This document shows positions 4,465 to 23,954 of a stretch of 51,816 nt of DNA, one piece after another. The DNA comes from a virus, in IMG/VR virus record IMGVR_UViG_3300027908_000080, positions 1-51,816 of that record; one strand, 5' to 3'. A program made the translations under genes and the position numbers. A model generated the notes under the pieces. The model saw only the letters and a list, made by a program, of their open reading frames with translations. It did not search any database and was not told the origin of the DNA. Numbering within the stretch: the first letter of the stretch is position 1; every line of letters begins with the position of its first letter.

Positions 4465-4499
4465 AAGCAAGAATCATGCCAACCATACTTATCTACTAT
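4465..4499 (-). promoter_or_regulatory. Sigma-54 promoter P2 for the capsid unit, with AGTAGATA box
   Basis: On the minus strand the site reads TGGCATGATTCTTGCTT, with GG at 4480-4479, exactly ten bases, then GC at 4468-4467. This matches the RpoN consensus TGGCAC-N5-TTGCW almost perfectly. The predicted transcript starts near 4456. An AGTAGATA box ends 8 bases upstream of the -24 TGG, as at two other phage sigma-54 sites. The only gene downstream before a strong terminator, besides the capsid gene, is the exported 164-residue protein. Confidence 0.85.
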
Positions 4500-5728
4500 C
4501 TCATGCCCATTGATTCTAATAACTTCGGGTCAAGATTAAATTCTTTTGGAACATTACCATTAGAATGACTCCCGTTAGTTACTTCTCTATGGTCAGAGGA
4601 TACCTCTACTCTCTCTGATTCTTCTTTCTTAATATTTGAAACTTGTTGAGTATTTTGTGCCGCTTTAAGTTCTGCAGTTCTAATCATAAGTCCAACAACT
4701 AAGTTAGCTGACATTCTAGCACCAGTAGAATTACGTTCATAAGAAGGAAACATATTCTTCACATCATTAATAATATCTTTAAGTTTTCTATCTCCAACTC
4801 CTTCTATTTCTACTGTATGTTCTAGTAACTCTGGATTAGCTACCCAAGAGAAATGTTCTTTCTCGTATTGATTGATAGCTTGTTGGTCTAGTTGAATACG
4901 TTGCTTGAATTGTTGTGGAAATGTTTGAAGTTCACCATTTAATTGCTGATAAACATTAAGACATTTAGATAAGTTATTATTAACTCTTATTTCTGCTTTA
5001 TCAGAAAATGGAATCTCATTACTAAGTTTAGGAGAACCGTCTTGATTCCATCCAACAATATCTTGGAATGGTTTTCCAGCCTTAATATTAAGTAATGCCT
5101 GTTCCCATACTTCAGCTTCCTTCTGTGCAAAGTATTGTTTCTGTTGTAACTGTTGAAATTCAGGACTTAAAGTATATCCTTGCTCATGTTGTAGATACTG
5201 AGAGTCTTTAAGAGCGGCAAGTTGTTTATTCTCATCAATAACTTTAGCATACTCTTTCTTAGCAGTATTAGACATTTGCTTAAGAATCTGTTGCTGCTCA
5301 GTAGAGTATTTAGTATAATCGAAAGTATCTTGTTCATCTTTCTTTAGAGGAGTGATAGGCTTGATTACTTCTTTCTTGACTTCCTCTTTCTTCTGTTCTA
5401 CTTTCTTTTCATCTTTAGGAGCTTTAAGAACTGATTCAATTCCAGTCTTTTTCTTCTCTTTCTCAATTTCTTCTTTAGGTTTTTCTTCTACTTTAACTTC
5501 TTCTTTCGGTTTAGTATCATCAACTTTTGGTTTCTCCTCTCCAATCTTAACTTCAGGTTTAATTTCTTCAACTGGCTTTTTGTCAATAGTAATAGTAGAT
5601 TCTCCACTCTCACTAATAAGAGAAGGATTAAACTCAAATTTCATTTCTTTAGCCTCTTTAGTAGGCTCAGTAGGCATTTGAGGTTTGCCCACATTAGATT
5701 GTGCTGGATTAACTATAATGTCTGCCAT
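4496..5728 (-). CDS. Capsid scaffolding protein
   Basis: The 410-residue product has a very charged N-terminal half (runs of E, K and P such as EEKPKEEIEKEKKK, residues about 45-130), then a helical, Gln-rich middle (QQILKQMSNTAKKEYAKVIDENKQLA) and a short C-terminal tail EFNLDPKLLESMGMR. This composition and its place between portal and capsid genes are typical of podovirus scaffold proteins, which build the procapsid in the cytoplasm and then leave. The start has GGAG twelve bases upstream of the ATG. The 3' end overlaps the upstream box of the capsid promoter. Confidence 0.75.
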   Translation of the reverse strand: MADIIVNPAQSNVGKPQMPTEPTKEAKEMKFEFNPSLISESGESTITIDKKPVEEIKPEVKIGEEKPKVDDTKPKEEVKVEEKPKEEIEKEKKKTGIESVLKAPKDEKKVEQKKEEVKKEVIKPITPLKKDEQDTFDYTKYSTEQQQILKQMSNTAKKEYAKVIDENKQLAALKDSQYLQHEQGYTLSPEFQQLQQKQYFAQKEAEVWEQALLNIKAGKPFQDIVGWNQDGSPKLSNEIPFSDKAEIRVNNNLSKCLNVYQQLNGELQTFPQQFKQRIQLDQQAINQYEKEHFSWVANPELLEHTVEIEGVGDRKLKDIINDVKNMFPSYERNSTGARMSANLVVGLMIRTAELKAAQNTQQVSNIKKEESERVEVSSDHREVTNGSHSNGNVPKEFNLDPKLLESMGMR

Positions 5729-5732
5729 AATA

Positions 5733-5984
5733 TTATTTCTCCGATAATTGAACGAATTTGGTTGTTTCTTTTGTTATTGATAAAATCACATCTATAGTTT
5801 TTAGACCATAAGATAAATTTCTAAAATGAGAATCAGATAAATCATTATTACCTGCTGAGAATGATAAAGAATCTACAAATGATTTCTTATGCTTTTCTAT
5901 ATTTTTAAGTAATTGTATTGTCACAGGATGAACTAACCATGCCTTATGCTCAGCACTTAATATGTTTTCAGGAGTAATATCCAT
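5733..5984 (-). CDS. Small unknown protein between portal and scaffold
   Basis: This 83-residue protein (MDITPENILSAEHKAWLVHPVTIQLLKNIEKHKKSF) is predicted to be helical, with no cysteine or membrane segment. Its length and position between portal and scaffold are common for small head-assembly proteins. The start is preceded by GAACAACTAATAATT, without a clear Shine-Dalgarno sequence. I do not recognise a family. Confidence 0.65.
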   Translation of the reverse strand: MDITPENILSAEHKAWLVHPVTIQLLKNIEKHKKSFVDSLSFSAGNNDLSDSHFRNLSYGLKTIDVILSITKETTKFVQLSEK

Positions 5985-5989
5985 AATTA

Positions 5990-7891
5990 TTAGTTGTTCT
6001 TTTGTTGAGGTTGTGTTAGCTGTTGTGCTATCTGTTGATATTGCTGTGCGGCACTTTGAATCTTAGGGTATATGTGAACCCTTCCAGTTTCACTAAACAT
6101 TTCAGGATGCTTAGACAAATCTACAATTTCATCTCCTAAAGACTTGGCTATTTGTAATCCTTGTTGCATCATTTGTCCTTGCTGAGATTGCTTTTGTTGT
6201 TGAGCATCATTAAATGCTTTCAAATACTTAGGAGCATTATCAGGAAACATTAGTTCTGTTAAGTCAGTTAGAAATGCTTGGGCAGCAGGAGTATTTTGAT
6301 ATACTGGCCATGCTTGTTGCATCATTTGAATCTTCTGCTGTTTCTCAATAACATCCACATCTCCAGAAGGCTTAACTGTCCATTCTCTTTGATATAATGG
6401 AAATACAGTTGGAGATACTTTAATTAGTCCAGCAAGAACACGAGACTTAATAATCTCACACTCATATGTATATTGAGCCTTAGTAGCTATAGAAAATAAT
6501 GTTACTTGAACTCCAGACAACTGTTGCTGCTGTGACATTGAGGCTTTGATAGCTGTAGCAGTCTTTCTCGAATCTCCCTGCCTATTATTCTCTGCAAAAT
6601 TAACTTGTGAAGTCTCTTGCTGATTCTGAGAGACTAGCATATTAATAGCTTGATAGGTAGATGGGTCAGGAGGGGTAAGTGAAAACTCTTTAACCTTACC
6701 ATTAATCAATGCACCAGTCTTAAAATTAATATTCTTCTGCATTAAGAAATCGTCATTAGGGTCAGTAGTATCTTTAGAGAAGTAAAGCCCTGATGCCCTT
6801 CTGGCTTGAGTGAGTGTAGAAGATATTAGAGAAGAAGCAGCATTCTGAACATCTTGGTCAAGAAATACTCTGCCCTTCAAATTAGCAATTGTATCATTCT
6901 CTGATATAAGATACGGATATAAGAAGTATGGATACTGAGTCTCATATACTTCATCAGAAGGTGGGATACCAGACTTCATTTGTTCTATGTACTTATCACT
7001 AAGGGATGGGACTATCTTTTTAAGAGCTATAGATGGAACTTTACCTATAAACCTACCAACTTTAGCAGAATCAGTATTAATCTTGCGGCGGCCTAAGAAT
7101 AGAGGTCGTGGACTTCTTAACCATCCATCACATAAATTAGGACACGCCCATCCGACCTGAACAACTCCTTTTACTCTAAACATTACTTTTAATATCTTAA
7201 AAAGACTACGATTAATAGTTGTAGTTCCAGAGTAAGTATTTGATTGTTCATCATTGGGTTCAGAATCTATTATTTTTTGAACTTGTGCAGAATCCCATTT
7301 ATCATTCTCTGAATCTTTAGAAATTAATTCTTTAAGTTTAGTTCTAGTAAAATAATATGCTCTACCTAGCATTTCTACTTTTTGTAAGTCTCTAGTGTCA
7401 GCTATGAATGAAAAATCTCCAAACTGAACATACTCTCTACCTATATTACCAGGATTATTAGTATCATAAATAGTCTCACACACTCCATATCCATTAGCCT
7501 GAAATCCATCTATATTAGCATAGGCTGGTAATTGCCATCCATCCCAACGTAATTTCTCTGTTAAATCAACCTCAAGAAGGGATAAGTCAAATGATGCCTC
7601 CTGTTTATCTTTAAGTATTACTGCTCTTGGAGATTGAGTTATGTATTGAATATATGAAGATTGTTCTCGACGAATATTAGTATCAATTATATGTTGTGGA
7701 ACATACATTTCATCTGGAGCTATTCTACCAGCCTGTCTTTCAACTTCAATATCAATTTCAGCGTATCTAAGTCTACGAGAAGCTAAAGATTTTGCAGTAA
7801 GGTCAAAGCAAATATCTTTTAGATTATTAATTTTATCTACAAGAATCTTATAATCTATGCTATTGATATAGTCTGTATAGATATCTGGCAT
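5990..7891 (-). CDS. Portal protein
   Basis: The 633-residue protein fits the portal of short-tailed phages in length and position (after terminase, before scaffold and capsid). It begins with a helical segment, has the QYITQSPRAVILKD and DLTEKLRWDGWQLPAYANIDGFQANGYGV regions often seen in this group, and ends in a Gln-rich helical tail (AQQYQQIAQQLTQPQQKNN) expected for the barrel or crown. As dodecamer it would form the DNA channel and bind terminase. The start context is CTGACTAAAATATT-ATG with no Shine-Dalgarno. The call rests on context and general similarity. Confidence 0.8.
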   Translation of the reverse strand: MPDIYTDYINSIDYKILVDKINNLKDICFDLTAKSLASRRLRYAEIDIEVERQAGRIAPDEMYVPQHIIDTNIRREQSSYIQYITQSPRAVILKDKQEASFDLSLLEVDLTEKLRWDGWQLPAYANIDGFQANGYGVCETIYDTNNPGNIGREYVQFGDFSFIADTRDLQKVEMLGRAYYFTRTKLKELISKDSENDKWDSAQVQKIIDSEPNDEQSNTYSGTTTINRSLFKILKVMFRVKGVVQVGWACPNLCDGWLRSPRPLFLGRRKINTDSAKVGRFIGKVPSIALKKIVPSLSDKYIEQMKSGIPPSDEVYETQYPYFLYPYLISENDTIANLKGRVFLDQDVQNAASSLISSTLTQARRASGLYFSKDTTDPNDDFLMQKNINFKTGALINGKVKEFSLTPPDPSTYQAINMLVSQNQQETSQVNFAENNRQGDSRKTATAIKASMSQQQQLSGVQVTLFSIATKAQYTYECEIIKSRVLAGLIKVSPTVFPLYQREWTVKPSGDVDVIEKQQKIQMMQQAWPVYQNTPAAQAFLTDLTELMFPDNAPKYLKAFNDAQQQKQSQQGQMMQQGLQIAKSLGDEIVDLSKHPEMFSETGRVHIYPKIQSAAQQYQQIAQQLTQPQQKNN

Positions 7892-7897
7892 AATATT

Positions 7898-8389
7898 TTA
7901 GTCAGACTTAGGCATATCTTCAACACTAAATTCTTCTACTTTACTGCTATCTGGATTGCTATTCATCTGCAACAGTTCTTCAGTTCCCATTTTTGCACGA
8001 ACTTTATCTGCCTCCCAATTATTACAACACGCATTTGGATGTATTTCATTTGGAGTTAATCCATTACTATTTTTATCAACTTCTTTACAATCATTCTTGC
8101 CAAATAAGAAATACTCACATCTTTTACAAGAAAATCCCTTTTTATTCTCAGCATATCCAGCTTGAACTTTTAGTATATTTCCTATAACAGGATTATAAAT
8201 TTCAGACTTAGTTCCATCTTCATGAACATAAAACCCACAAGAACCATTGTCAGGACTTATTTCATTGTCTGGCCCAAATAAAGCACATATATTTGTCTCA
8301 GGGATTCTGTTTACACATTGTCCACAAGTATATTCTGTCTCTGGATTAAATGCATATAGAACAACTTCCTTCTTTATTTTATCTCCCAT
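7898..8389 (-). CDS. Cysteine-cluster protein (metal or Fe-S binding candidate)
   Basis: This 163-residue protein has two similar cysteine clusters, CGQC-x8-C-x14-C near residues 19-48 and CKRC-x10-C-x20-CC near residues 88-122. Each looks like a knuckle that could hold zinc or an iron-sulphur cluster, similar to the high-potential iron-sulphur-like proteins some phages encode beside the portal. No membrane segment. It lies in the head-gene block just before the portal gene. Function unknown. Confidence 0.7.
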   Translation of the reverse strand: MGDKIKKEVVLYAFNPETEYTCGQCVNRIPETNICALFGPDNEISPDNGSCGFYVHEDGTKSEIYNPVIGNILKVQAGYAENKKGFSCKRCEYFLFGKNDCKEVDKNSNGLTPNEIHPNACCNNWEADKVRAKMGTEELLQMNSNPDSSKVEEFSVEDMPKSD

Positions 8390-8392
8390 AAC

Positions 8393-8647
8393 CTAAGAAG
8401 GCATTCCTTCTGTGCTAAAGTTCGCAGTATTAAGATGTGATTTCTTCTGGCTAGACATTAGCTTCTGTCTAATCTCAGATATTTGACTAGACATAAAATC
8501 CAGTTCTGGGATAGTAGCATCATTAATTAACTCAGAAACTTCTTTCTGAAATTCTTCAGAAATCTTTACATTATCTTCTCCTTCTTCCTTTTCTTCTTCA
8601 GGAGATTCTGACATTTCTTCCTCTTGCATTCCTTCATCTTCTTTCAT
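8393..8647 (-). CDS. Small acidic protein
   Basis: The 84-residue product starts with an extremely acidic stretch (residues 1-30, many Glu) followed by a helical half (EFQKEVSELINDATIPELDFMSSQISEIRQKL). Small acidic proteins in head blocks may act as chaperones or scaffold helpers. The start is preceded by CCAACTAAATAATATT. I do not recognise it. Confidence 0.6.
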   Translation of the reverse strand: MKEDEGMQEEEMSESPEEEKEEGEDNVKISEEFQKEVSELINDATIPELDFMSSQISEIRQKLMSSQKKSHLNTANFSTEGMPS

Positions 8648-8651
8648 AATA

Positions 8652-8981
8652 TTATTTAGTTGGAGTTGGTGGAGTAACTACTCCTGCAACTTTAGGAGTA
8701 ACTACAGTAGTATTACTTGGCGGAGTTTTAGTAACTTGTTCAGTCTTAACAGAAGTTTCACCCCCGACCTTATAAAGTTTCACACCATTCAACTCAATAG
8801 TATCATCATTAGAATTGAATATGATATCTTTTGCACCCTCAGTTCTAGCATTATATCTAGACATATAATTAGTCATAGGCTTAATATCAGAAGGTAAAGG
8901 TTGATTACAGGCGGGACAAATCTTAATCTCAGGCTTCTTTAGAAAGGTTCTAGCCTGAGGATTATATGTTTCTATTGGCAT
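8652..8981 (-). CDS. Small protein with one CxxC knuckle
   Basis: This 109-residue protein has one CPAC motif near residue 22 and a low-complexity Thr/Pro/Val tail (VTPKVAGVVTPPTPTK). With only one CxxC pair it could bind metal as a dimer. It lies between terminase and portal genes. No function can be assigned. Confidence 0.6.
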   Translation of the reverse strand: MPIETYNPQARTFLKKPEIKICPACNQPLPSDIKPMTNYMSRYNARTEGAKDIIFNSNDDTIELNGVKLYKVGGETSVKTEQVTKTPPSNTTVVTPKVAGVVTPPTPTK

Positions 8982-9021
8982 AAATTATACAGTAGATGGA
9001 GGAGTTGACATAGGTGGAACA

Positions 9022-9183
9022 TTAGGAGCTTCCTTTTTTCTTACTAGCTTGCATTTGAAGTTTAGGATTGAATGTCCCTCTAGCATTTGACAATTCTACT
9101 TCTTTATTGATAATCTTATGATGCTCAGAAGTAGGTTGCTCAACTTTAGGTGGATAATTAAGTTCTGTTATTTTTGGTTGCAT
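9022..9183 (-). CDS. Very small protein between terminase and portal
   Basis: A 53-residue frame starts MQPKITELNYPPKVEQPTSE and ends in a basic tail (KLQMQASKKKGSS). It fills the otherwise empty gap after the terminase gene and sits 4 bases before it, in the same orientation. The start context CTAAACTAATACT-ATG is like its neighbours. Likely a real gene of unknown role. Confidence 0.55.
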   Translation of the reverse strand: MQPKITELNYPPKVEQPTSEHHKIINKEVELSNARGTFNPKLQMQASKKKGSS

Positions 9184-9187
9184 AGTA

Positions 9188-10987
9188 TTAGTTTAGTTGC
9201 ATTTGTTTTCGTTGTTTGTTGTATTCACTCAACTGTTCTTTCAAATCATCTAGCTGGTCATATTCTATATGTTCAGGTTTAAACTTATTCAAACTCCTAT
9301 TAGCCCAATCATTTAAATCAAAATCTCCTACTATCTTATTTTTAGGCTTATATTCTGGAATATCAAAAGGTTTTACTATACTTTCTTCAGAGTCTATTCT
9401 AGTTGATTTATAATTCCAAAAGCATAAATTCACAGCGTCAGCCCTATCAGGAGAAGGATAACCTCTACTCCTCTGCTCCAATTTAGTAAGCAAAGCATGA
9501 ATATTAGAAGTTGTTATTTTATAATACCGCGTTGAAAGTTGAGTAATTAAAGTTTTATCATCTATTAGAATCAATTCTTTTCCTTCAAGTAACTTTCGTA
9601 AGTTAAAGAATAGTTCTGTTCCTCTGTTAGAATAGGTTCTAAATTCTGAAGCTTTGTGCCTAGAATCAATATATTTTATATTAGACCAACCTTTTCTTTT
9701 AAGACTATTTAGCATAGGTTTTCCCATACCACAACAATCTGCAAATATTAGTGCTTCTGGAGTATTAAGATTATTTTCTTTGAACTTCTGCTCTAAGTAT
9801 TCTATAGAATCTTCTGTATTCTCAAATCTAAATGGCAGAAGTTTAATAAGTTTATTACCATTTCTTATAGCTAACACAGTCTCAGCTCCGCCATCAGAAA
9901 GGTCTAATCCTCCAGTATTAAAAGATTCAGCTATATGAATAGCTTTACTTCTTGCTCCAGCCCAAACAAATGATGAAGGTATCACTACCATTTCATCTGT
10001 AGTTCCAAACTCAGCTAGAATAGAGGATTTAAATACTACATTATTCTTTCCTCCAGGTAATTTAGAAGCAATACGTTCTATCTCAGACTCAGTAATATGT
10101 GAACATTGATATCCTGTAACTTTATACAGAATTACTTGTGTAGAAGTCAAAGACTTAATATCCTCTATTTCTTCCCTTGGTAATGCTGTTGAGGCTGTGT
10201 TATAGAAATAACCAGAAGGAAGTCCAGGTGAAGATGCATCAACTCTATGTGTAAATCCTGTGCATCTTTCGAGTGCATCTGTAATTTCTTCTGGAATCGA
10301 TTTTGTTTCTGAAGTGAAAATAGCCATTCTTTTTCCTGCATCAACTGGATGATAACCTTCAGCTTTTCCTGGCTCATCAGTAGCAAATAGTTTAATTGTG
10401 GAGATTTGAACTTCCCCTGTTTCAAGAGTATATTGGAACTCATAGTATCTATAATTAATTTTCCACATTTTACCAAATAGTGCGTTAGCTTTATGACAAA
10501 GACGGTCTATATGAATAGAGGTCTGGCTATCAAGTTGATTACCAGAAGATGAAGTTATAGGACATTGACACTCTCTATATCTCATACAAAGCCATACTGC
10601 ACAAGCAGCAATGATATATTTATCTTTCCCACTACTATTACAGGTTTGACAACAGGCTTGAAATGGAGAATCTTTAGTATGTTTACTATTTGCGAAATCT
10701 AACATAAACTGCATTTGCCAATCATGTAGCTTAACTTCTCCTGATAGTATATTTTCATCAAGAAGGAGTAAAAGTTCTATAGGATTAGCTATATCTATCC
10801 CATCAAAATCTAAAGAAGGAGTCACAGGTGAGGAAAGCATAGCCTCATCTTTAACTTCCGAAGAAGTAGAACAACCCAATACTTCAGTAGCATGTGACTC
10901 CAGCTTATTAGGAGAAAGGTCAGTTACTCCTAAATTTCTATTATTAAGTATTTCTATGAAATCTTCTGGAGATAAGTTATTAGACAT
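9188..10987 (-). CDS. terL: Terminase large subunit
   Basis: The 599-residue protein has the two parts of a packaging motor. The ATPase part shows HDWQMQFMLD, a P-loop-like CNSSGKDKY (residues 116-124) and a TSETKSIPEEI segment (225-235) at the Walker B region, where the usual DE is replaced by a single Glu. The nuclease part shows LDLSDGGAE (361-369), FADCCGMG (415-422) and the classic ending SPDRADAV (512-519). It would cut concatemers and drive DNA into the procapsid through the portal. The Walker A lysine is present, but the motif lacks the usual GxxxxGK form. Start chosen at MSNNLSPEDF. Confidence 0.92.
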   Translation of the reverse strand: MSNNLSPEDFIEILNNRNLGVTDLSPNKLESHATEVLGCSTSSEVKDEAMLSSPVTPSLDFDGIDIANPIELLLLLDENILSGEVKLHDWQMQFMLDFANSKHTKDSPFQACCQTCNSSGKDKYIIAACAVWLCMRYRECQCPITSSSGNQLDSQTSIHIDRLCHKANALFGKMWKINYRYYEFQYTLETGEVQISTIKLFATDEPGKAEGYHPVDAGKRMAIFTSETKSIPEEITDALERCTGFTHRVDASSPGLPSGYFYNTASTALPREEIEDIKSLTSTQVILYKVTGYQCSHITESEIERIASKLPGGKNNVVFKSSILAEFGTTDEMVVIPSSFVWAGARSKAIHIAESFNTGGLDLSDGGAETVLAIRNGNKLIKLLPFRFENTEDSIEYLEQKFKENNLNTPEALIFADCCGMGKPMLNSLKRKGWSNIKYIDSRHKASEFRTYSNRGTELFFNLRKLLEGKELILIDDKTLITQLSTRYYKITTSNIHALLTKLEQRSRGYPSPDRADAVNLCFWNYKSTRIDSEESIVKPFDIPEYKPKNKIVGDFDLNDWANRSLNKFKPEHIEYDQLDDLKEQLSEYNKQRKQMQLN

Positions 10988-11402
10988 TAATAGCCTTTTG
11001 TCCTTTAATATTATTTGTAAGTCTCGCAGCCGCCTCTCTAACTTGCATAATACGCTGATTGAAATTGAATATATTAGTTCCTTGTGGAACTTTTATCACA
11101 TCTTTTCTTCCCATTGCATCATCTCTCACATTAATTAATAGTTTACCTCTTAAATGCTCATCTTCTGCACTAAGAGCCAAATCTAATAATGCTTCTTTCA
11201 CTCTCATTTGTTCATCAAATGAGTATTTAAGTTTATTAATATCTTCTGAATCTTGCCCACAATCCTTTCTATATTTAGAAGAACACTGCATAAGTGCCCC
11301 TTTAACCGCCTCAATTTCAAGTGATTGGTCTAAAGCAATAGTCTCTGGCTGCATATTTTCTTCTTCATACGCAGTCTTAATTATGTTTAATATTGCCAAC
11401 AT
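10980..11402 (-). CDS. Putative small terminase subunit
   Basis: This 140-residue protein overlaps the large terminase gene start by 8 bases. It is helical (LEIEAVKGALMQCSS, DEQMRVKEALLDLALSAEDEHLRGKLLINVRDD, FNQRIMQVREAAARLTNN), as expected for an oligomeric DNA-recognition subunit. The start overlaps the stop of the gene before it (TAATG). Position and length favour a small terminase role, but I see no clear helix-turn-helix. Confidence 0.55.
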   Translation of the reverse strand: MLAILNIIKTAYEEENMQPETIALDQSLEIEAVKGALMQCSSKYRKDCGQDSEDINKLKYSFDEQMRVKEALLDLALSAEDEHLRGKLLINVRDDAMGRKDVIKVPQGTNIFNFNQRIMQVREAAARLTNNIKGQKAINV

Positions 11403-11650
11403 TATAGTATATTATTTGGAAGTGCGGAGGGGAAGGGGCGCTCCATAGCCTCTTCTTCATCCATCTTATTAAGTGATTCTTGCTGTTTAAACATTTGTGT
11501 AAATATAATTGCTCTATGTAGAGCCTCTAATTCTTCTTTAGTATGTGTATCTTCTGGTGGACGACTTAGATATGCTTTAGCATTAGACTTGGTTGACATA
11601 TCTATAATTTTCATTGCTTGAGGCTTATTAGTTGGAAATTGAATGTTCAT
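11402..11650 (-). CDS. Small unknown protein near the head of the structural operon
   Basis: The 82-residue product MNIQFPTNKPQAMKIIDMSTKSNAKAYLSRPPEDTHTKEELEALHRAI has a central helix and a Pro-rich C-terminus. It precedes the putative small terminase gene. No family recognised; the clean context and overlapping stop support a real gene. Confidence 0.6.
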   Translation of the reverse strand: MNIQFPTNKPQAMKIIDMSTKSNAKAYLSRPPEDTHTKEELEALHRAIIFTQMFKQQESLNKMDEEEAMERPFPSALPNNIL

Positions 11651-11663
11651 AATATTTATTAGT

Positions 11664-11904: not shown

Positions 11905-11917
11905 TAGTTTACTATAG

Positions 11918-11950
11918 TAGCATTTTTCATGCCAATTAGTCTATCTACTG
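11918..11950 (-). promoter_or_regulatory. Sigma-54 promoter P1 for the structural operon, with AGTAGATA box
   Basis: On the minus strand the site reads TGGCATGAAAAATGCTA, with GG at 11933-11932, ten bases, and GC at 11921-11920. The core from TGG to TGCT is the same as in promoter P8 near 23.94 kb. An AGTAGATA box (11949-11942) lies 7 bases upstream of TGG. Transcription would begin near 11908 and run through packaging, head and tail genes. Confidence 0.88.
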
Positions 11951-12070
11951 TTTTATCCTTCTTAGCCCTATTATATCACGACTTTAGGATTCGTAAATGG
12001 TCTATTCGAGAGAGAGGTATAGTTCGAGTTCGAGTTCCTCTTTCTGGTTTTCTAATAGACCCATAATTTT

Positions 12071-12154
12071 AACTAATGATAGTATTGCTAATAGTAGGTA
12101 AACTAATGATAGTTATACTTATGTAGAGATACTTATACTTATGTAGAGATACTT
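12071..12154. repeat. Iteron-like direct repeats
   Basis: AACTAATGATAGT occurs at 12071-12083 and 12101-12113, exactly 30 bases apart. A 20-base unit, starting ATACTTATGTAG, is repeated head to tail at 12115-12134 and 12135-12154. Such repeats beside an A+T-rich stretch are common at phage origins. Confidence 0.7.
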
Positions 12155-12337
12155 ATTAGCTATTATGACTACTAGTTAGCTAGTCATTCGTGGAGCTAAT
12201 GGAGTCATTGTGACACAGTGTATAGTGTTGTCCTTCAAGTAGTTAAAGCTTGTCTAATAGTGTTCTAACATCTCATACTTTCACTAATACAACTCGATTT
12301 GTATCACCCTTTTTGAAAAAATGGTCTCGTGGGGAGT

Positions 12338-12430
12338 TATATTAACGTTATATTATAGTTGGAAAGAAATATATTAAATATAATATAATATATTAGTATT
12401 CATAATATATTACTATACACTAGTTTATAA
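12338..12430. other. Candidate DNA-unwinding region or origin
   Basis: This tract is almost only A and T (for example AAATATAATATAATATATTA) and follows the iteron-like repeats by about 180 bases. It lies at the point where the two transcription arms diverge. An origin role is inferred from composition and context only. Confidence 0.4.
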
Positions 12431-12497
12431 ATTAAGTCTCTGATACGGAAGGGAGTTGTATTAGTCGTGATACAAAGAGACAAAATGTCCCTAATAA

Positions 12498-12514
12498 TGG
12501 CATGAGAAGTGCTA
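12498..12514 (+). promoter_or_regulatory. Sigma-54 promoter P3
   Basis: TGGCATGAGAAGTGCTA has GG at 12499-12500, ten bases, then GC at 12511-12512. It overlaps a TGTCC half-site and is the first of three such promoters on the plus strand. No gene starts until 13059, so the product would have a long leader. Confidence 0.75.
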
Positions 12515-12693
12515 ACCTCACCCAGTTACTAACTGTCTCAATAATGGACATGTCCAAAAGACATGTGTAAGAACAGGACATACCGTCCTAAAAGTGGAAT
12601 AGGGTGTCTAATAATGGGCAAAGTGTTAATACTTAATGAGTTATGATTAAGTCTCTGCACTATTAGTGACTCATTAGTGGACACTTTGAGAAC

Positions 12694-12710
12694 TGGCATA
12701 AAAACTGCAA
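12694..12710 (+). promoter_or_regulatory. Sigma-54 promoter P4
   Basis: TGGCATAAAAACTGCAA has GG at 12695-12696 and GC at 12707-12708 with a ten-base gap. A TGACT-N7-GGACA repeat ends eleven bases upstream. It points towards the 13059 gene. Confidence 0.78.
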
Positions 12711-12747
12711 TAATGTAACCTATTGATACTAAACAACTTAACTAGAT

Positions 12748-12764
12748 TGGCATACCGGATGCTA
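12748..12764 (+). promoter_or_regulatory. Sigma-54 promoter P5
   Basis: TGGCATACCGGATGCTA has GG at 12749-12750 and GC at 12761-12762 with a ten-base gap. The predicted start is near 12774, 285 bases ahead of the next gene and just before a cluster of stem-loops. Confidence 0.75.
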
Positions 12765-12773
12765 TACTCAACT

Positions 12774-13058
12774 TGCCTGTGAAGCAATGCTACAGGTGAG
12801 GGACTGCTAACCTCACTGGGGAACTGCAGCGGCTCATAGTGGGTTGGCGGAGCTATGCTCCGGGTGAACCCACAACTTAACTGTCTTATTTGTGGACACA
12901 ATAGAACTGTCTAGTAGTCTAACTCACTACAGACACTCTCTATCAATTTCACAAGCTAGGAAATTCATGTAAAGCTAATAATCACTTTGCAGACATAAGA
13001 ACTCTGCAAACGCTAGGAGAATAATCTCTTACTGATACCAGTAATAGCTATACTTAAC
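12774..13058 (+). ncRNA. Structured leader or small RNA upstream of the 116-residue gene
   Basis: Several stems are visible: GTGAGG/CCTCAC (12796-12801 with 12811-12816), GTGGGTT/AACCCAC (12839-12845 with 12867-12873) enclosing CGGAGC/GCTCCG around a TAT loop, TTTGCAG/CTGCAAA near 12986-13010, and TTACTG/CAGTAA at 13028-13043 just before the start codon. TGCTAACCTCAC in the first hairpin also occurs at 12510-12521, overlapping promoter P3. The stretch has no gene. It could be a regulated 5' leader or a separate RNA. Confidence 0.5.
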
Positions 13059-13409
13059 ATGAAAACAGACAACATTGTAGTTGAAAAGGCTCTAAACCCA
13101 TTCAAAACTGCCATTGGCAATAGTATGCCAAAGATAGTAGGTGATATAAAGTCTCTACTTGGCAGAGTTGATAAGGATGTAGTAGTGAAAGACGGAGACT
13201 GGAAAGCCAGCGCGGGGTTCAAACTATCACGCCGCAATGGTGAAACCGTTCAATTACCAGCTAATAATCCGGCAACCATATTGCTCTGCTTTGGTATGCG
13301 GTTCAATGAATTAGCAAAAAATGCTGATTGTGAGATTGAAGCATCCATACCAACAGTATGTGAAGCATGGGTGAAGGAACATAGCTCAAAACAGCAAGTT
13401 GCTGCCTAG
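13059..13409 (+). CDS. Unknown protein under three sigma-54 promoters
   Basis: The 116-residue protein (MKTDNIVVEKALNPFKTAIGNSMPKIVGDIKSLLGRVDKDVVVKDGDWKAS) has a globular composition with two cysteines, no membrane segment and a helical C-terminus (VCEAWVKEHSSKQQ). It is the first gene of the rightward arm, preceded by promoters P3-P5 and followed by a strong terminator, so it should be made in quantity from its own transcript. That pattern fits a regulator or abundant DNA-binding protein. I do not recognise a domain. Confidence 0.7.
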   Translation: MKTDNIVVEKALNPFKTAIGNSMPKIVGDIKSLLGRVDKDVVVKDGDWKASAGFKLSRRNGETVQLPANNPATILLCFGMRFNELAKNADCEIEASIPTVCEAWVKEHSSKQQVAA

Positions 13410-14878: not shown

Positions 14879-14895
14879 TGGCACAAAACTTGCTT
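14879..14895 (+). promoter_or_regulatory. Sigma-54 promoter P6
   Basis: TGGCACAAAACTTGCTT is an almost perfect RpoN consensus, with GG at 14880-14881, ten bases, then GC at 14892-14893. The predicted start is near 14905. The next features are a long hairpin and a tRNA-like gene, not a protein gene, so the product would be a structured RNA. Confidence 0.88.
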
Positions 14896-14904
14896 ATATG
14901 AGGG

Positions 14905-15020
14905 CGGAGATGATTAAATGGAGTAGTGATAACTAAATATTGTTGGACAATTTGAGCAATTCTAACATTAGAACACTAATCTCAATAATATGTTGTGACC
15001 TCACTACTCCATTTAATTAT
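14905..15020 (+). ncRNA. Long hairpin RNA ahead of the tRNA-like gene
   Basis: ATTAAATGGAGTAGTGA (14913-14929) pairs perfectly over 17 bp with 15001-15017. The 71-base interior folds further: TTGAG/CTCAA and TTCTA/TAGAA. It begins within a few bases of the predicted P6 start and ends 11 bases before the tRNA-like gene. There is no reading frame of note. It could be a small RNA or a processing structure. Confidence 0.7.
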
Positions 15021-15028
15021 TTACAAAT

Positions 15029-15121
15029 GCCACAATATCTCAACTGGCTAGAGAACTAGAACAACGAAAGCAATAGTAATTGACAATCTAGTAAATGTGA
15101 GTTCAAGTCTCACTTGTGGCT
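15029..15121 (+). tRNA. tRNA-like gene with an enlarged anticodon loop
   Basis: The acceptor stem is GCCACAA (15029-15035) with TTGTGGC (15114-15120) and no encoded CCA. T8-A9 follow, then the D stem TCTC/GAGA with loop AACTGGCTA. The T stem is GTGAG/CTCAC with loop TTCAAGT, all canonical. The anticodon stem CTAGA (15056-15060)/TCTAG (15087-15091) is intact, but its loop is 26 bases instead of 7. If the last seven (TTGACAA) are the real loop, the anticodon would be GAC (valine) with a 19-base insertion in front. A 5-base variable region follows. It could be an intron-bearing tRNA, a decoy or a decayed gene. Confidence 0.65.
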
Positions 15122-15127
15122 CTCTTT

Positions 15128-16404: not shown

Positions 16405-16421
16405 TGGCACACAAAATGCTA
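16405..16421 (+). promoter_or_regulatory. Sigma-54 promoter P7
   Basis: TGGCACACAAAATGCTA has GG at 16406-16407, ten bases, then GC at 16418-16419. The predicted start is near 16431. The 100-base leader has TGACAG (16438-16443) complementary to CTGTCA near 16486-16491, with AGAAAGAA facing TTTCTTCT inside. The gene at 16534 and a long stem-loop at 17168 complete a one-gene transcript. Confidence 0.8.
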
Positions 16422-16533
16422 TAACACACATTTACGGTGACAGTCTGAGAAAGAACAACCAATAGCACGGACTTCTATTTCTTCTGTCAGGTAATAACAA
16501 ACAATGAACAAATAAACAAAATAGAACACAAAT

Positions 16534-17244: not shown

Positions 17245-17248
17245 ATTT

Positions 17249-18308: not shown

Positions 18309-18374
18309 ATGTGATATTTGTCAGAATTGGGACACATTTTCAGAAGCCATCACCGCCACGAAAAAGGATAAATA

Positions 18375-18839
18375 GTGATTAAAAAGCAAATAAAAGAACA
18401 ACAAGTTACAGTTCCACTTAATGATTTAATATTCTGTATACTAGGAGACTATGATAATGGATGGTCTAATGCTACTATTAGTCATTCGGTTGCAGCTATA
18501 CTAGACTTTCGTCTTGAAGATTCTCTACTTTACAAAGTAGTTTTCACTGACCAAGATGATAAACCTCTTGAATTTCCACAATTATGGCGTTATCCTGACT
18601 GGAAAACTTCACAAGAGAAATACTATAAAGCTAAGAAATGGTCACATAAGCAACGTATTGAGAGGCAGATGTTTGAGGCGAATATAGCTAATCTGTCTAA
18701 AGCCATATCTAAAACTTCAGGAATGTATATTGAAGATGCTAGAGGGTTAGCATATACTCTAATGAAGAAGGGGAATAAAGAATTACTAGAAGTATTTGGG
18801 ATGATTAAAATAATAACTGAGGAAAAAGATTTACCATAA
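18375..18839 (+). CDS. Unknown protein before the helicase
   Basis: The 154-residue protein starts with GTG (MIKKQIKEQQVTVPLNDLIFCILGDYDNGWS) and is helical and basic in its middle (EKYYKAKKWSHKQRIERQMFEANIANLSKA). It ends four bases before the helicase start, so the two are probably co-translated. It could be a helicase partner. No family recognised. Confidence 0.6.
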   Translation: MIKKQIKEQQVTVPLNDLIFCILGDYDNGWSNATISHSVAAILDFRLEDSLLYKVVFTDQDDKPLEFPQLWRYPDWKTSQEKYYKAKKWSHKQRIERQMFEANIANLSKAISKTSGMYIEDARGLAYTLMKKGNKELLEVFGMIKIITEEKDLP

Positions 18840-18842
18840 TTT

Positions 18843-21074
18843 ATGCCAGAACAACTCACCAAAGAACAACTGACTCAGAAAAAAGCCGACTCCAAACAAA
18901 GAGAAGTAGTCAAAGGAATAGGTAATAGACTATTATCTCAATATTCGTTTCAGAATATCAAAACATGGAATGATATTTACAAGTTTACAGGCTTCTCTGA
19001 CGACTATGTTCGCGCCACTTTCAAACCAGAAGATGTAATAAAACCAGTTTCTCTACAAGATGTTAAGAATTGGATTAAGAAATTAACTGATGATGTAGAG
19101 AATAAAATAAGGGAGAAGTATGAGAACATACAAACCAAGAAAGAAAACTCGGATATACAAAGCAAAGAAGTCAACGGTAGTATATCTATCACAGATAATA
19201 AATCCACAGTTGGAGTTGCAGATTCAAGCAAGATTAAAGAGGATGTTGTAAAGGATGAATCAGGCTACTCTAACGACAACAACTACGGACTCGTTGAAAG
19301 TCCTAAAGAACGAGCGTTCTTGTATTATTTTCAGAAAAAAGCAGCAGCAGAAGTCCTACAAAAAGTTATCAAAGAAAAGAAAGAAGGTATCCTAGTTCTA
19401 GCATCTACTGGGACGGGTAAAACATTTATAAAGGGTGCAATAGAAAGGCGTCTAGCAGATATTAATTTCTTAGAAGATACTACTTGGGGTCATATTAAAT
19501 GTATTAATGTTACCCGTGCGACTGTTGTTGAGCAAGATAAAAGAGTATTTAAGAATTTCTTTGGGATTGACCCTGTAATAGAATCAGAAGTTATCAATAT
19601 TGAGCAACTTCGTTCTCGTGCTGGACAGATATGGATTAAGTCTTGGACAGCAATAGAGAATGGGGAAGAAGTGGAGAAGTATGAATGGAAGCCCATGATT
19701 CATCCAGCTAGATTTCATTTAGATGAATGTCAGGCTGTAAAGAATGAGGATAGTATCCAACACAAAATTTGTATTCAATACTCAGCTATTAAGATTCCAG
19801 TTATACAAATATATTATTCTGCTACTCCATTTACCCGTGTATCAGAGGCGAAAGCATTTGCTATAGCAACGAAGAAAGATATATCTCACATCACTGGTAT
19901 TCCAGGAACTCGTCTCTCACTTGCCACTTGGCCAACTTATGCTGCTGCTATTGCAGCTCCATCTCCGCCCGATGAATATAATGAAGCTGCTGTAGAGCGA
20001 TTAATGAAAGATTTGGATGACTATGTAGTTAGAGTTAAGGGTGTTAGATGGCAATTTAATGCAGTTAATAAGGTTGAGATTATTGATTTTGATTCTGATG
20101 AGTCGAGGCAGGAGTATGATAATGCTTGGCAGAAATACCTAGCAAGGAAAGCTAAGTTAGAAGAATCAGTCATAGATAATCCTAGATTTCAAGCTTTAGT
20201 AGAACTTGGTATTTTTCTTGCGGCAGCGGAGTATTGTAAAAGATATATTCTGGCTAAAAGAATGTATGAAGATGTGAAGGCAGGTAATGCTGCTGTAGCT
20301 GCTGTGAAGTTTAAGAAAACTATTATAGCAATAGTTAAGATTCTAACTGAAGAATATGGAGTAAGCAGAGATTCTATATCTCTTGTGTGGGGTGGAGGAC
20401 AGACACAACTTACAGCGAAGCAGAAATTGAAAGCTAAAGTCTTGGAGAACCAAGCACTATTTGAGGCTCAAGGAATATCTATGGAAGATATGATGCTTGA
20501 AGATGTAGAAGAAAGAATCCTTGAGGATTTACCTGAGCATCTAAGACTAGGTGGGCAATCAAAAGAACAGAGACAGAAAGAAATTGATAGGTTTCAGTCA
20601 GGGAAGTCTTTATACTGCATCCATACTTTTAAATCTGGAGGCGTAGGCTTATCTCTCCATCACTCTGACGAGAGGGTAGCACAGAAAGTTAGGCATCAAA
20701 AGAATGGTTATGCTATAGTTGAAGATATTCCTAAAGTTCCAGTGCGGCCAAGAAAAGCTACTATTTCGCCTACTTGGAGTCCAATAGAAATGGTTCAAGG
20801 GGTAGGAAGATGCCCTAGATTAACTAGTCTCAGCGATACAGAACAAACTTTGCTGTTTTATAGAGGGACAGTGGAGGAACAGCAAGCATTTGTTGTGACC
20901 CATAGACTTAAATGTCTGAGTAAAGTAGTAAGGCAGCACGAAAGTTGGCAAGATTTAATTACGAATCATGTTAAAGCTAAGGAGTTAGCTAGAAAAATAG
21001 TTGAAGAAATGCCAACAGAAGATTCTAAGGACGGAGAACAACCAAACCTAGTAGAAAGTGAGGATAATGAATGA
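18843..21074 (+). CDS. Superfamily 2 DNA/RNA helicase
   Basis: The 743-residue protein has a linker-rich N-terminus (residues 1-150), then the SF2 core: LASTGTGKTF (Walker A, 187-195), FHLDECQAV (Walker B DECQ, 291-299), YYSATPF (motif III), FKSGGVGLSLHH (motif V) and SPIEMVQGVGRCPR (motif VI). It would unwind DNA or remodel protein-DNA complexes using ATP during replication or recombination. Phage replisomes often carry such a helicase beside ligase and polymerase genes, as here. The ATPase residues look intact. Confidence 0.88.
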   Translation: MPEQLTKEQLTQKKADSKQREVVKGIGNRLLSQYSFQNIKTWNDIYKFTGFSDDYVRATFKPEDVIKPVSLQDVKNWIKKLTDDVENKIREKYENIQTKKENSDIQSKEVNGSISITDNKSTVGVADSSKIKEDVVKDESGYSNDNNYGLVESPKERAFLYYFQKKAAAEVLQKVIKEKKEGILVLASTGTGKTFIKGAIERRLADINFLEDTTWGHIKCINVTRATVVEQDKRVFKNFFGIDPVIESEVINIEQLRSRAGQIWIKSWTAIENGEEVEKYEWKPMIHPARFHLDECQAVKNEDSIQHKICIQYSAIKIPVIQIYYSATPFTRVSEAKAFAIATKKDISHITGIPGTRLSLATWPTYAAAIAAPSPPDEYNEAAVERLMKDLDDYVVRVKGVRWQFNAVNKVEIIDFDSDESRQEYDNAWQKYLARKAKLEESVIDNPRFQALVELGIFLAAAEYCKRYILAKRMYEDVKAGNAAVAAVKFKKTIIAIVKILTEEYGVSRDSISLVWGGGQTQLTAKQKLKAKVLENQALFEAQGISMEDMMLEDVEERILEDLPEHLRLGGQSKEQRQKEIDRFQSGKSLYCIHTFKSGGVGLSLHHSDERVAQKVRHQKNGYAIVEDIPKVPVRPRKATISPTWSPIEMVQGVGRCPRLTSLSDTEQTLLFYRGTVEEQQAFVVTHRLKCLSKVVRQHESWQDLITNHVKAKELARKIVEEMPTEDSKDGEQPNLVESEDNE

Positions 21075-21262
21075 CACCCTTAAACCCACCCAAATATAAA
21101 CTATTCCAAAAGATAAATAACAATGTCTATTTTGGCTCTTTGGAAATCAAAGATATATTTACTAATATAGACTGGAGTTCAGAGTATGTCTATAGAGTTA
21201 TGAATGATGACATGGAGTATTTCTTCCTAACTGAGGAAGAACTTTCGGAGTATTTTATATGA
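21071..21262 (+). CDS. Small unknown protein
   Basis: A 63-residue acidic frame (MTPLNPPKYKLFQKINNNVY) joins the helicase and ligase genes with four-base overlaps on both sides. The C-terminus is acidic (TEEELSEYFI). Tight coupling supports a real gene; role unknown. Confidence 0.55.
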   Translation: MTPLNPPKYKLFQKINNNVYFGSLEIKDIFTNIDWSSEYVYRVMNDDMEYFFLTEEELSEYFI

Positions 21263-22173
21263 TAAATTTTCGTAGGCCGATGCTCGCTGCCTCACTTCTA
21301 CCTTCTAAAGTGGAGCATACTGACGAAAATATCTTAGAAGCAATGAAGAAACTTCGTTACCCAGTATTTGTAACAGAGAAGAAAGACGGAATCAGAGCCT
21401 TAAAAGTTTCTACTAATTTAGTATCAAGAACATTAAAACCAATTCCAAATTCAAGTATTAGAATAAGGTCATATAGCCTACCTACTGGATATGATATGGA
21501 ATTATTTAATGCTGAACTTAAATATGAACAAATAGAATCTATTGTAATGAGCAGAGAACACAAAGATTCAGATTTGGTTCAATTTCATGTTCTTGATAAT
21601 TTTAATATTGAGGGAGCAACTTATGAACAAAGAATATGGTCAATCAATAAAGATATAAATTGTTGGTCTGATTGTCCATTTGTATTTGAATATCCTACTG
21701 CATATACAACTCCTGAAAGATTGTTCGACATATTTCTTGATACAGAACAATCTGGAGGCGAAGGTATTTGTTTCCGCACTCCCAACTCACACTATAAACA
21801 AGGTCGTTCCACCCTCAAAGAGCAATACTTAGTTAAACTTTGTCGTAATTTAACCTCAGAAGCAGTTATAGAAGGCTTCGAAGAGCAAATGGAGAATGGT
21901 AATGTAGAGCAACGTAATGCTATTGGAGCAATGGACAGGTCATCTTGTAAGGCAAACTTATATGGCAAAGATACTCTTGGCAGTCTAATAGTGCGCGACT
22001 TAAAAAGTGGATTAGTGTTTAATATAGGAACAGGGTTTAATGATGCTATGAGATTTAATATTTGGCACGAACAAAGTAATACTAAAGGCAAAATAATAAC
22101 ATATAAATACAAGGGCGGAGGTAAAGATTTACCTAGATGCCCCGTCTTTATGAGATTTAGGAGTATACAATGA
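21259..22173 (+). CDS. ATP-dependent DNA ligase
   Basis: The 304-residue protein begins RRPMLAASL and has the nucleotidyltransferase motifs: I, EKKDGIRA (residues 40-47, lysine nucleophile K41 in KxDG), III, YDMELF (near 90), IV, EGICFR (near 174), and V, YLVKLCR (near 194). It is short, like T7-type phage ligases, with an OB-type C-terminal part. It would seal nicks left by replication. All expected catalytic motifs are visible. Confidence 0.88.
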   Translation: MINFRRPMLAASLLPSKVEHTDENILEAMKKLRYPVFVTEKKDGIRALKVSTNLVSRTLKPIPNSSIRIRSYSLPTGYDMELFNAELKYEQIESIVMSREHKDSDLVQFHVLDNFNIEGATYEQRIWSINKDINCWSDCPFVFEYPTAYTTPERLFDIFLDTEQSGGEGICFRTPNSHYKQGRSTLKEQYLVKLCRNLTSEAVIEGFEEQMENGNVEQRNAIGAMDRSSCKANLYGKDTLGSLIVRDLKSGLVFNIGTGFNDAMRFNIWHEQSNTKGKIITYKYKGGGKDLPRCPVFMRFRSIQ

Positions 22174-22319
22174 AAGATAAATACGGCAGAGAAATTGAGA
22201 AAGAGGAACAAGAGTTCTATGGCATTGAGGACTATGAACTTGAACAACGTAGAATGGAACATGAAGATTGGATGATGGATATTTCAAGACAAGATTTATC
22301 TACTTCTTATGACAAATAA
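22170..22319 (+). CDS. Small acidic protein
   Basis: A 49-residue frame, MKDKYGREIEKEEQEFYGIE, overlaps the ligase stop (ATGA) and the next start. It is highly charged and helical. Unknown. Confidence 0.5.
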   Translation: MKDKYGREIEKEEQEFYGIEDYELEQRRMEHEDWMMDISRQDLSTSYDK

Positions 22320-22626
22320 TACTATCGTTGTAGATTTGAATAAAGTCCAATTCGCTAATCTATATTGGAAGAATCAATATGGCAATGTCAAACGTCTTAA
22401 GCCACGAAAACCTACTGTGCATGGAACAAGATTTAATCCTAATGACCTACATATTACTGAACATATTCTAATGATAGAGTTTGCACAGAAGCATAGATTA
22501 CTTGATATTTGGAATCCAGTGTGTAGGTTACAATTATCTTCTAATCATTGGCTAGAATATACAGGAGATAAAGCTTTGTCAATTTACAAAGAGTGGAATA
22601 GAAGAATTTTTAAACCAAATAAATAG
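22309..22626 (+). CDS. Unknown small protein
   Basis: The 105-residue product (MTNNTIVVDLNKVQFANLYW) has an RLKPRKPTVHGTRFNP segment and an aromatic C-terminus. It lies in the ligase-activator operon with overlapping ends. No family recognised. Confidence 0.55.
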   Translation: MTNNTIVVDLNKVQFANLYWKNQYGNVKRLKPRKPTVHGTRFNPNDLHITEHILMIEFAQKHRLLDIWNPVCRLQLSSNHWLEYTGDKALSIYKEWNRRIFKPNK

Positions 22627-22627
22627 T

Positions 22628-22879
22628 ATGACAGTATTTACATCTTACTTACATACATCATATACTTGGAATCACAAAGAGAATAAACGTATAGGTTTTA
22701 TAAATGAAGATGATGCTAAGTATGCTGTATATTGTGCAGTAAGAAGACAAAGAAGATTAAGATTTAAAAGAATAAATAATTTTATTTGTGCAGAATCTTC
22801 TAACAATCCTACAATAGCAGTTGAAAATTATGATACCACCAACAAAGAACAACCTACAGAAAGAGCCAACAAAGTATAG
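22628..22879 (+). CDS. Unknown small basic protein overlapping the activator gene
   Basis: This 83-residue protein (MTVFTSYLHTSYTWNHKENK) has an RRQRRLRFKR basic patch near residues 39-48. Its last 50 bases overlap the start of the sigma-54 activator gene in another frame, an unusually long overlap that could couple translation of the two. A nucleic-acid-binding partner of the activator is possible but not shown. Confidence 0.55.
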   Translation: MTVFTSYLHTSYTWNHKENKRIGFINEDDAKYAVYCAVRRQRRLRFKRINNFICAESSNNPTIAVENYDTTNKEQPTERANKV

Positions 22880-23729
22880 TCAATCCACACTTCAAACATT
22901 CCTAGATAATGGGATGATAGAAGTAGTTCAGAATATACTTAATCTTAATCCAGACCTTAAATATAAAATAGAGAATGGAAAATTGTTAGACTCTGTAACA
23001 GGAGCAGCATTGTGGCTTAAGAAGTTTATTACTGAGGATGCGGATTGTATAACTCTTAAACAAGATGCAATGAAGTTAGCTAAAGTTGATGATGAAGTTC
23101 TAATAACTGGTGAGACTGGAACAGGCAAGGAAATAATAGCTAGAGCTATGATAGGAGATAGAGAAGGGGACTTTAAAAGGGTTAATTGTGCGGCAATGCC
23201 GGAAGCTCTTATTGAAGCAGAATTATTTGGCTCAGTTGCAGGAGCATACACTGGTTCTACAGGTGCGAAGAAAGGAATGATATTATCAGCGAATAATGGA
23301 GTAATGTTTTTGGATGAAGTTGGAGACCTTCCATTATCTATTCAGGCGAAACTTCTCAACGTATTGCAACCAATAGAGGGTAAAAGATTTATTCGCCCAG
23401 TGGGTTCTACAGAAGAAAAAGAAATAACTTGTCGTTTCGTCTGCGCGACTCATAGAAACTTATTAGATATGGTGAAGGCTGGAGCATTTAGACTTGACCT
23501 TTATGCTCGTATAAGCACTTTTGAATTACACATAAAGCCATTGAGAGAAAGAAAGGCTGACATAATTCCTATTGTAATAGCCTTAGGAGAACTTCTGAAA
23601 ATAAATACTAAGGTTTTCTTGGAGAAATATACAGAAGATATTATCTATGATAGCTCATTTGACCTCTCACTTAATGTAAGGTCAATAGAGAGAGCGATAA
23701 AAAGGTTTAGTGTATTAGGAAAAATATGA
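22830..23729 (+). CDS. Sigma-54-dependent transcription activator (AAA+ domain only)
   Basis: The 299-residue protein is a bacterial enhancer-binding-type ATPase that would open promoter complexes of host sigma-54 polymerase. Visible motifs: Walker A GETGTGKE (94-101), the sigma-contacting loop GAYTGS (138-143; usual GAFTGA), Walker B VMFLDE (158-163), sensor I CATHRN (205-210), the arginine region FRLDLYARI (220-228), LRER (238-241) and NVRSIERAI (282-290). It ends right after the AAA+ lid and has no Fis-type helix-turn-helix, and no receiver or GAF domain; only about 65 residues precede the core. It might act from solution or through a DNA-binding partner. I chose the ATG at 22830, not the TTG nine bases upstream. 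A sigma-54 promoter follows 200 bases downstream. Confidence 0.93.
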   Translation: MIPPTKNNLQKEPTKYSQSTLQTFLDNGMIEVVQNILNLNPDLKYKIENGKLLDSVTGAALWLKKFITEDADCITLKQDAMKLAKVDDEVLITGETGTGKEIIARAMIGDREGDFKRVNCAAMPEALIEAELFGSVAGAYTGSTGAKKGMILSANNGVMFLDEVGDLPLSIQAKLLNVLQPIEGKRFIRPVGSTEEKEITCRFVCATHRNLLDMVKAGAFRLDLYARISTFELHIKPLRERKADIIPIVIALGELLKINTKVFLEKYTEDIIYDSSFDLSLNVRSIERAIKRFSVLGKI

Positions 23730-23902
23730 AACCGACACATAGATTGAAAGTCTTAGATAAGAAAACAAATGGTAGAACAGAGGCAGGAGCAGGATGGCAA
23801 AATGAAGATGGCTCTATCTCAATAGTATTAAATCCTTGCATAAGACTCACTCCAGATAATAGAACTGTAATAACTTTGTTTCCTATAGATAAAACTGAGT
23901 AG
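23726..23902 (+). CDS. Small unknown protein
   Basis: A 58-residue frame, MKPTHRLKVLDKKTNGRTEA, starts on the activator stop (ATGA). The GWQNEDGSISIVLNP stretch with TVITLFP resembles many short phage proteins that form a single beta sheet. Unknown role. Confidence 0.55.
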   Translation: MKPTHRLKVLDKKTNGRTEAGAGWQNEDGSISIVLNPCIRLTPDNRTVITLFPIDKTE

Positions 23903-23916
23903 TATAAAAACTAACA

Positions 23917-23954
23917 TCATTAGTAGATAAATAAAAGTGGCATGAAAAATGCTT
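23917..23954 (+). promoter_or_regulatory. Sigma-54 promoter P8 with AGTAGATA box
   Basis: TGGCATGAAAAATGCTT has GG at 23939-23940, ten bases, then GC at 23951-23952. Sixteen of its bases equal the structural-operon promoter P1. AGTAGATA ends 8 bases before TGG. Transcription would start near 23964 into a non-coding structured region, then the gene at 24367. Confidence 0.88.

Follow-up and report, generated by a model that had tools for sequence, protein, structure and literature searches.

A predicted sigma-54 activator and matching -24/-12 promoter-type sites in a lineage of ~50 kb phages

The activator gene and the sites in the window

The window analysed here, the whole of IMG/VR record IMGVR_UViG_3300027908_000080 (51,816 bp), carries a gene for an AAA+ protein of the sigma-54 activator type together with eight intergenic sites, P1 to P8, that resemble promoters recognised by sigma-54 (Table 1). 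Sigma-70-type promoters, anti-sigma factors and phage polymerases are regarded as the main means by which phages take over transcription. An earlier note made from the letters of the same DNA had suggested that a phage-borne activator is paired here with matching promoters, and this pairing was seen both in the present sequence and in about 85 related viral loci.

Table 1. Coordinates of the activator gene, the sigma-54-type sites and other features of the window
Feature	Position	Strand	Rank with the Salmonella matrix	Remarks
Sigma-54 AAA+ activator, 299 amino acids, type Ic architecture	22830..23729	+		PF00158, E=4e-51
P1, sigma-54-type site	11920..11934	-	10	exact pattern match; heads leftward packaging/head operon
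P2, sigma-54-type site	4467..4481	-	1	143 nt before major capsid gene; best matrix score in window
P3, sigma-54-type site	12498..12512	+	7	exact match; non-coding divergent region
P4, sigma-54-type site	12694..12708	+	3	exact match; non-coding divergent region
P5, sigma-54-type site	12748..12762	+	6	exact match; non-coding divergent region
P6, sigma-54-type site	14879..14893	+	2	exact match; before folded RNA 14901-15124
P7, sigma-54-type site	16405..16419	+	4	115 nt before 16534, head of helicase-ligase-activator operon
P8, sigma-54-type site	23938..23952	+	5	after activator gene, 415 nt before replication operon (24367 onwards)
Major capsid protein, HK97 fold, N4 gp56-like	2990..4324	-		AlphaFold2 model against PDB and BFVD
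Large terminase subunit (TerL)	9188..10987	-		tblastn to annotated terminases
Structured RNA after P6: long hairpin and tRNA-like 3' part	14901..15124	+		fold z=-5.39; RF00005 sub-threshold
P8 leader, non-coding, multi-hairpin, 405 nt	23962..24366	+		fold z=-3.39; 0/100 shuffles as stable

The sites were defined by the pattern TGGCAY-N6-TGC, which is equivalent to GG-N10-GC, on both strands. All eight sites listed in the earlier note are exact at the positions and on the strands that it gave, and they make up the complete set of intergenic matches in the window. The earlier note had expected about one site by chance; 60 Markov-1 shuffles gave a mean of 0.63 and a maximum of 3, as against 12 matches in the window as a whole. 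The four further matches (1958-, 38678+, 38680- and 42363+) are intragenic, and two of them are the opposite strands of one palindrome. When the spacer was varied (TGGCAY-Nn-TGCT, n=2-10), nine matches were found at n=6 and none or one at every other length, and the sites fit the -24/-12 consensus YTGGCAYR-N4-YTGCT. A comparison of an RpoN-type matrix with shuffled sequence had been set beforehand as a test of the proposal, and an independent matrix was built for it from the 29 intergenic Salmonella sigma-54 sites, obtained by chromatin immunoprecipitation, that are printed in PMC3844500. With this matrix, applied to both strands, the seven best-scoring positions were all in gaps and were seven of the eight sites, P1 losing its score at the final base of the 18-mer; seven positions scored 15 or more, as against 0.2 in shuffles. 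The claim that the sites are suitably oriented also held, in that P1, P2, P7 and P8 stand directly before genes, P6 before a folded RNA, and P3 to P5 before a non-coding stretch of 300-550 nt that separates them from the open reading frame at 13059. P1 lies 270 nt before the gene at 11402-11650, in an operon that also contains the TerL gene and possible portal and scaffold genes.

The assignment of the gene at 22830-23729 to the sigma-54 activators was borne out by a PF00158 score of 173 bits (cut-off 20.2), and all 21 of the 21 family members exceed the cut-off. Judged by its motifs, the protein is a genuine sigma-54 AAA+ protein: it contains GETGTGKE (Walker A), VMFLDE (Walker B), the asparagine switch, FRxDLYARI (arginine fingers) and NVRS (sensor II), and the G, K and E of GETGTGKE, N119, D162/E163, F220/D223/R227 and R284 are invariant in the alignment. 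The sigma-54 loop reads GAYTGS in the window and G(A/S)(F/Y)TGA, GSYTGS or GAFTDA in relatives. Variants of the GAFTGA motif have been described in known activators, such as F3Y in TouR and A6S in PrpR, and also G5D (PMC3162934); both departures of GAYTGS from GAFTGA (F3Y and A6S) are found in working activators. The AlphaFold2 model (predicted local distance difference test, pLDDT, 88.8) matches the AAA+ domains of FleQ, NtrC1, FlrC and PspF. The N-terminal stretch of about 60 amino acids (about 20 in some relatives) matches no known domain. All 21 activators match phrog_7998, which is annotated as 'unknown function', and PHROGs also gives the protein weak clamp-loader matches.

An HTH_8/Fis DNA-binding domain is absent from all 21 activators, whose chains stop at the sensor II helix. 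The protein is thus without the C-terminal helix-turn-helix (HTH) of the classical bacterial enhancer-binding proteins (bEBPs) of types Ia and Ib, and has the FleT-like architecture of type Ic, an AAA+ core lacking both signal and DNA-binding domains. Because it has no DNA-binding domain, the activator probably works from solution on any sigma-54 promoter and not at enhancers. Furthermore, no sigma-54 gene (PF04552) was found in 17 phages of the group, and sigma-54 would therefore have to be supplied by the host.

Conservation of the pairing in related viruses

Scans of IMG/VR with activator, capsid and terminase queries gave 28 related records. A PF00158 protein is encoded once in every near-complete relative (at least 43 kb) and is missing from six records, all of them fragments of 34 kb or less; sites are present in all related records. 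The site counts cover 1.06 Mb of sequence from 24 genomes or genome fragments, a few of them near-duplicate records (G001/G002 and G006/G007), so that the counts refer to records and not to independent events. There were 154 exact sites as compared with 6 for the reversed pattern; 114 of the 154 are intergenic, although gaps account for just 13% of the sequence; 100 face the next gene. Varying the spacer over the same 1.06 Mb gave 136 matches for n=6, as against 4-14 for other lengths. In addition, positions outside the search pattern were conserved, with T after TGC in 97%, T before TGG in 75% and a purine after TGGCAY in 99% of cases, and thus positions for which no selection had been made also fit the sigma-54 consensus.

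The placement of the sites is conserved as well. In 22 of 22 genomes a site precedes the capsid gene by no more than 300 nt, mostly by 126-172 nt, and in 21 of 22 a site follows the stop codon of the activator by at most 700 nt. Gene family F26, the head of the helicase-ligase-activator operon, is preceded by a site in all 12 genomes that carry this family, and the TerL operon is headed by one in most relatives. No site was found directly upstream of the portal, helicase, DNA polymerase, nuclease, activator and most other core genes. The divergence of the activator tracks that of the helicase (rho 0.87) and less that of the capsid (0.56); this divergence in step with the helicase makes long residence of the activator more likely than its recent acquisition.

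With an alignment of the 21 activators as the query, 283 IMG/VR contigs were found to encode a relative. In 57 of the 75 loci examined, a same-strand site follows the activator by no more than 400 bp; judged by contig names, 62 of these loci do not belong to the 24 genomes, and the activator-then-site layout is seen in 46 of these 62. Two records of the 29-series (L171 and L179), whose activators have long C-terminal tails, have no site. In one subgroup (L154-L164, L166, L167, L169 and L170) no standard GAFTGA-type loop was recognised, yet a sigma-54-type site is found downstream; the loops read closely in this subgroup are GSYSGA (L154) and GSHSTA (L155). The Akkermansia phages Chantilly and DTMo-2021a, distant relatives that lack the activator, have no site or one.

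Genome layout, non-coding RNAs and host

The window represents a phage genome that is complete or close to complete. Its ends have 10 bp in common, and the gene at 1-2037 (-) runs on across this overlap to encode a protein of 749 amino acids, from which it follows that the genome map is circular. This protein has a weak alpha-galactosidase (Melibiase_2) match and is perhaps a tail-associated carbohydrate-active protein. Packaging, capsid and tail genes form a leftward block that starts at 11.65 kb, passes the ends of the map and reaches 33.9 kb, and a rightward block (13.06-33.97 kb) contains genes for a helicase, ligase, the activator, a nuclease, AAA_24, DNA polymerase A and DUF3987, the two blocks diverging from a non-coding region at about 11.9-13.0 kb. 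The capsid model is of moderate confidence (pLDDT 63), with the N4 capsid and the N4-gp56 major capsid protein as its best matches in PDB and BFVD. The best tblastn match of TerL is to Akkermansia phage Chantilly (27%, E=1e-32), and at the tblastn level used the capsid, portal and helicase have no recognisable relative in any named phage.

Between the divergent blocks, 11934-13059 is a nearly non-coding stretch of about 1.1 kb with repeated short words, such as AGACTTAAT and TCTAATAA, and three of the sigma-54-type sites; this region may hold small RNAs or an origin. Matches to the sigma-70 consensus near it are no commoner than in shuffles, and thus an early promoter could not be picked out there.

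The RNA that follows P6 consists of a hairpin of about 100 nt and a tRNA-like cloverleaf with the T-arm GTGAGTTCAAGTCTCAC and an extended anticodon arm. Its RF00005 match (18.6 bits) is under the Rfam tRNA threshold, and no Rfam family was found in the window at gathering thresholds. In the relative G001, a site at 3500(-) lies about 200 nt upstream of a complete transfer-messenger RNA gene (L005:2997-3287 (-); RF00023, 110 bits, E=3.5e-44) with an unusual tag of 29 amino acids, ANQDYAMSVAQADAVLAHYGYVDAGLVTV. As at the P8 leader, the long gap behind the activator is retained in all relatives that have the downstream gene (F19). These gaps, of about 0.3-1.5 kb, appear as long non-coding leaders behind a P8-type promoter; by eye, the leaders of G004 and G009 end in a tRNA-like T-arm and an acceptor with CCA, and in G006 ARAGORN called a tRNA-Ser.

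The sole match of the capsid protein among GTDB genomes is a contig of this phage lineage in a peat metagenome-assembled genome labelled 'Methanoregulaceae' (L107, JACTVG010000014.1), and contig C19 (G029), from the same bin, encodes a PF00158 protein. Archaea are not known to have sigma-54, and therefore the phage contig was very likely misbinned. The likeness of TerL to those of Akkermansia phages (27%) is a weak hint of a host among the Verrucomicrobiota.

Proposed mechanism, alternatives and known systems

The reading that we favour, with a probability of roughly 0.87, is that the phage-encoded activator would open the complex of host RNA polymerase (RNAP) and sigma-54 at the middle and late promoters of the phage, that of its own operon included. 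Host RNAP with host sigma-54 would wait as a closed complex at the -24/-12 promoters that head the major gene blocks, and the activator, presumably made early, would hydrolyse ATP, remodel sigma-54 from solution and open all of these promoters together. P7 would feed back positively on the operon containing the activator, P8, directly behind the activator gene, would start the replication block, P1 and P2 would switch on the blocks for packaging and capsid, and non-coding or structured RNAs would be transcribed from P3 to P6. The use of the sites, their service by this activator, its action from solution, the timing and the dependence on host rpoN are what we infer from these arrangements. The earlier note had spoken of a late programme run through host sigma-54; the programme would not be late only, as the helicase-ligase-activator operon, the replication operon and the structured RNAs are also headed by sites. 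Two points weigh against the reading. The gut phage MT121960 has a PF00158 protein and no exact site at all, which makes the pairing of activator and sites a feature of the present lineage, not of phage AAA+ proteins in general. A degenerate enhancer or a distinct DNA-binding partner could also have escaped the simple k-mer count, described below, by which enhancers were looked for. We would give even odds to the wider proposition that, in a large and uncharacterised lineage of tailed phages of about 50 kb, nearly all of the middle and late programme depends on host sigma-54 and on a DNA-binding-free activator that also fires the entire sigma-54 regulon of the host in the course of infection.

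A variant that we regard as unlikely, though the best placed of the alternatives, is that a DNA-binding partner, either a small phage HTH protein or a host factor, docks the activator at enhancers and thereby makes it promoter-specific. Most known bEBPs bind enhancers (PMC3162934), and in some genomes lineage-specific boxes are located 10-30 nt upstream of the sites, for example GTAGATA before P1, P2 and P8. However, HTH_8 was found in none of the 21 activators, the k-mer count brought out no upstream box shared by the majority of promoters in any genome, and no small gene adjoining the activator is kept in most genomes. It is still less probable that the sites are real sigma-54 promoters fired by host activators, as in Pseudomonas phage YuA, and that the phage activator mainly reprograms host genes. 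The late promoters of YuA need host sigma-54, and YuA has no PF00158 gene; furthermore, an activator without a DNA-binding domain would fire host sigma-54 promoters too. Against this, the activator and the sites co-occur in every near-complete genome, in 21 of 22 a site immediately follows the activator gene, and the same k-mer count gave no host-type enhancer common to the promoters. We consider it very improbable that the AAA+ protein does other work, as a loader in DNA replication or repair, and that another factor binds the sites: the location of its gene in the replication region and the weak clamp-loader matches would fit such a role, but the protein retains the sigma-54-specific loop and all bEBP motifs, its best structural matches are FleQ, NtrC1 and PspF, and the sites fit the Salmonella sigma-54 matrix with exact spacing. 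Although 4 of the 12 matches in the window are intragenic and two of these come from one palindrome, an origin of the sites by chance, composition or coding is ruled out by the shuffle, reversed-pattern and wrong-spacing controls, over which intergenic sites are in about tenfold or greater excess, and by the sites keeping their place across divergent genomes.

If activation by the phage protein is correct, the virus would bring with it the ATP-driven activator that sigma-54 promoters strictly require, and its genes would be silent until a phage protein appears, which amounts to a tight off-switch. Loss of rpoN would then lead to phage resistance, infection would switch on host sigma-54 genes, and a natural activator free of DNA binding would suffice. 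It would also suggest a function for phrog_7998. The interest of the system rests on the lineage-wide occurrence of the activator and promoters and on the ease with which they can be tested experimentally.

Several known systems resemble parts of this arrangement. The T4 proteins gp33/55/45 and the lambda Q protein are phage late activators that act on host RNAP with sigma-70-type promoters. There, as is predicted here, a phage protein steers host RNAP towards genes of the middle or late phase; the difference lies in the sigma factor and in the predicted ATP-driven remodelling of a closed complex. PspF is likewise a single AAA+ module without a signal domain, but retains a Fis-type HTH and binds enhancers, whereas the phage protein ends before the HTH. 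Type Ic bEBPs without a DNA-binding domain have been reported, namely FleT of R. sphaeroides, FlgR of H. pylori and CtcC of Chlamydia, and FleT also lacks a signal domain (PMC3162934). Like the phage activator, they have an AAA+ core with a GAFTGA loop and no HTH, and FleT, also lacking the signal domain, has the same architecture; however, these three are bacterial regulators, whereas the genes considered here are core genes of ~50 kb phages. DctD250, a truncated S. meliloti DctD that consists of the AAA+ core only, fires sigma-54 promoters promiscuously across Salmonella without enhancers (PMC3844500). The phage activator is similarly an AAA+ core and is predicted to act constitutively and from solution; DctD250 is a laboratory construct, whereas the phage protein resembles a natural counterpart equipped with promoters of its own.

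The closest precedent among phages is YuA, with M6 (Yuavirus). The YuA record (AM749441) has three annotated -24/-12 late promoters and sigma-70 promoters too, and the 50 kb of it that were examined contain no match to the exact site pattern. PMC5053324, citing Ceyssens 2008, describes the use of host sigma-54 by phages as rare but not unprecedented, and YuA as strictly dependent on it; the likeness to the present phages would lie in the transcription of structural genes through host sigma-54. The opinion of the earlier note that such a programme would be unusual must accordingly be divided: the use of host sigma-54 by a phage was already known, and the open-access literature searched yielded no earlier description of a sigma-54 activator that a phage encodes together with matching promoters. 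What is new, as far as was found, is this combination and its occurrence as a trait of a whole lineage. Rather than the YuA arrangement of host sigma-54 with host activators only, the phage here supplies the activator itself, and its sites cover the replication, activator, RNA and structural blocks.

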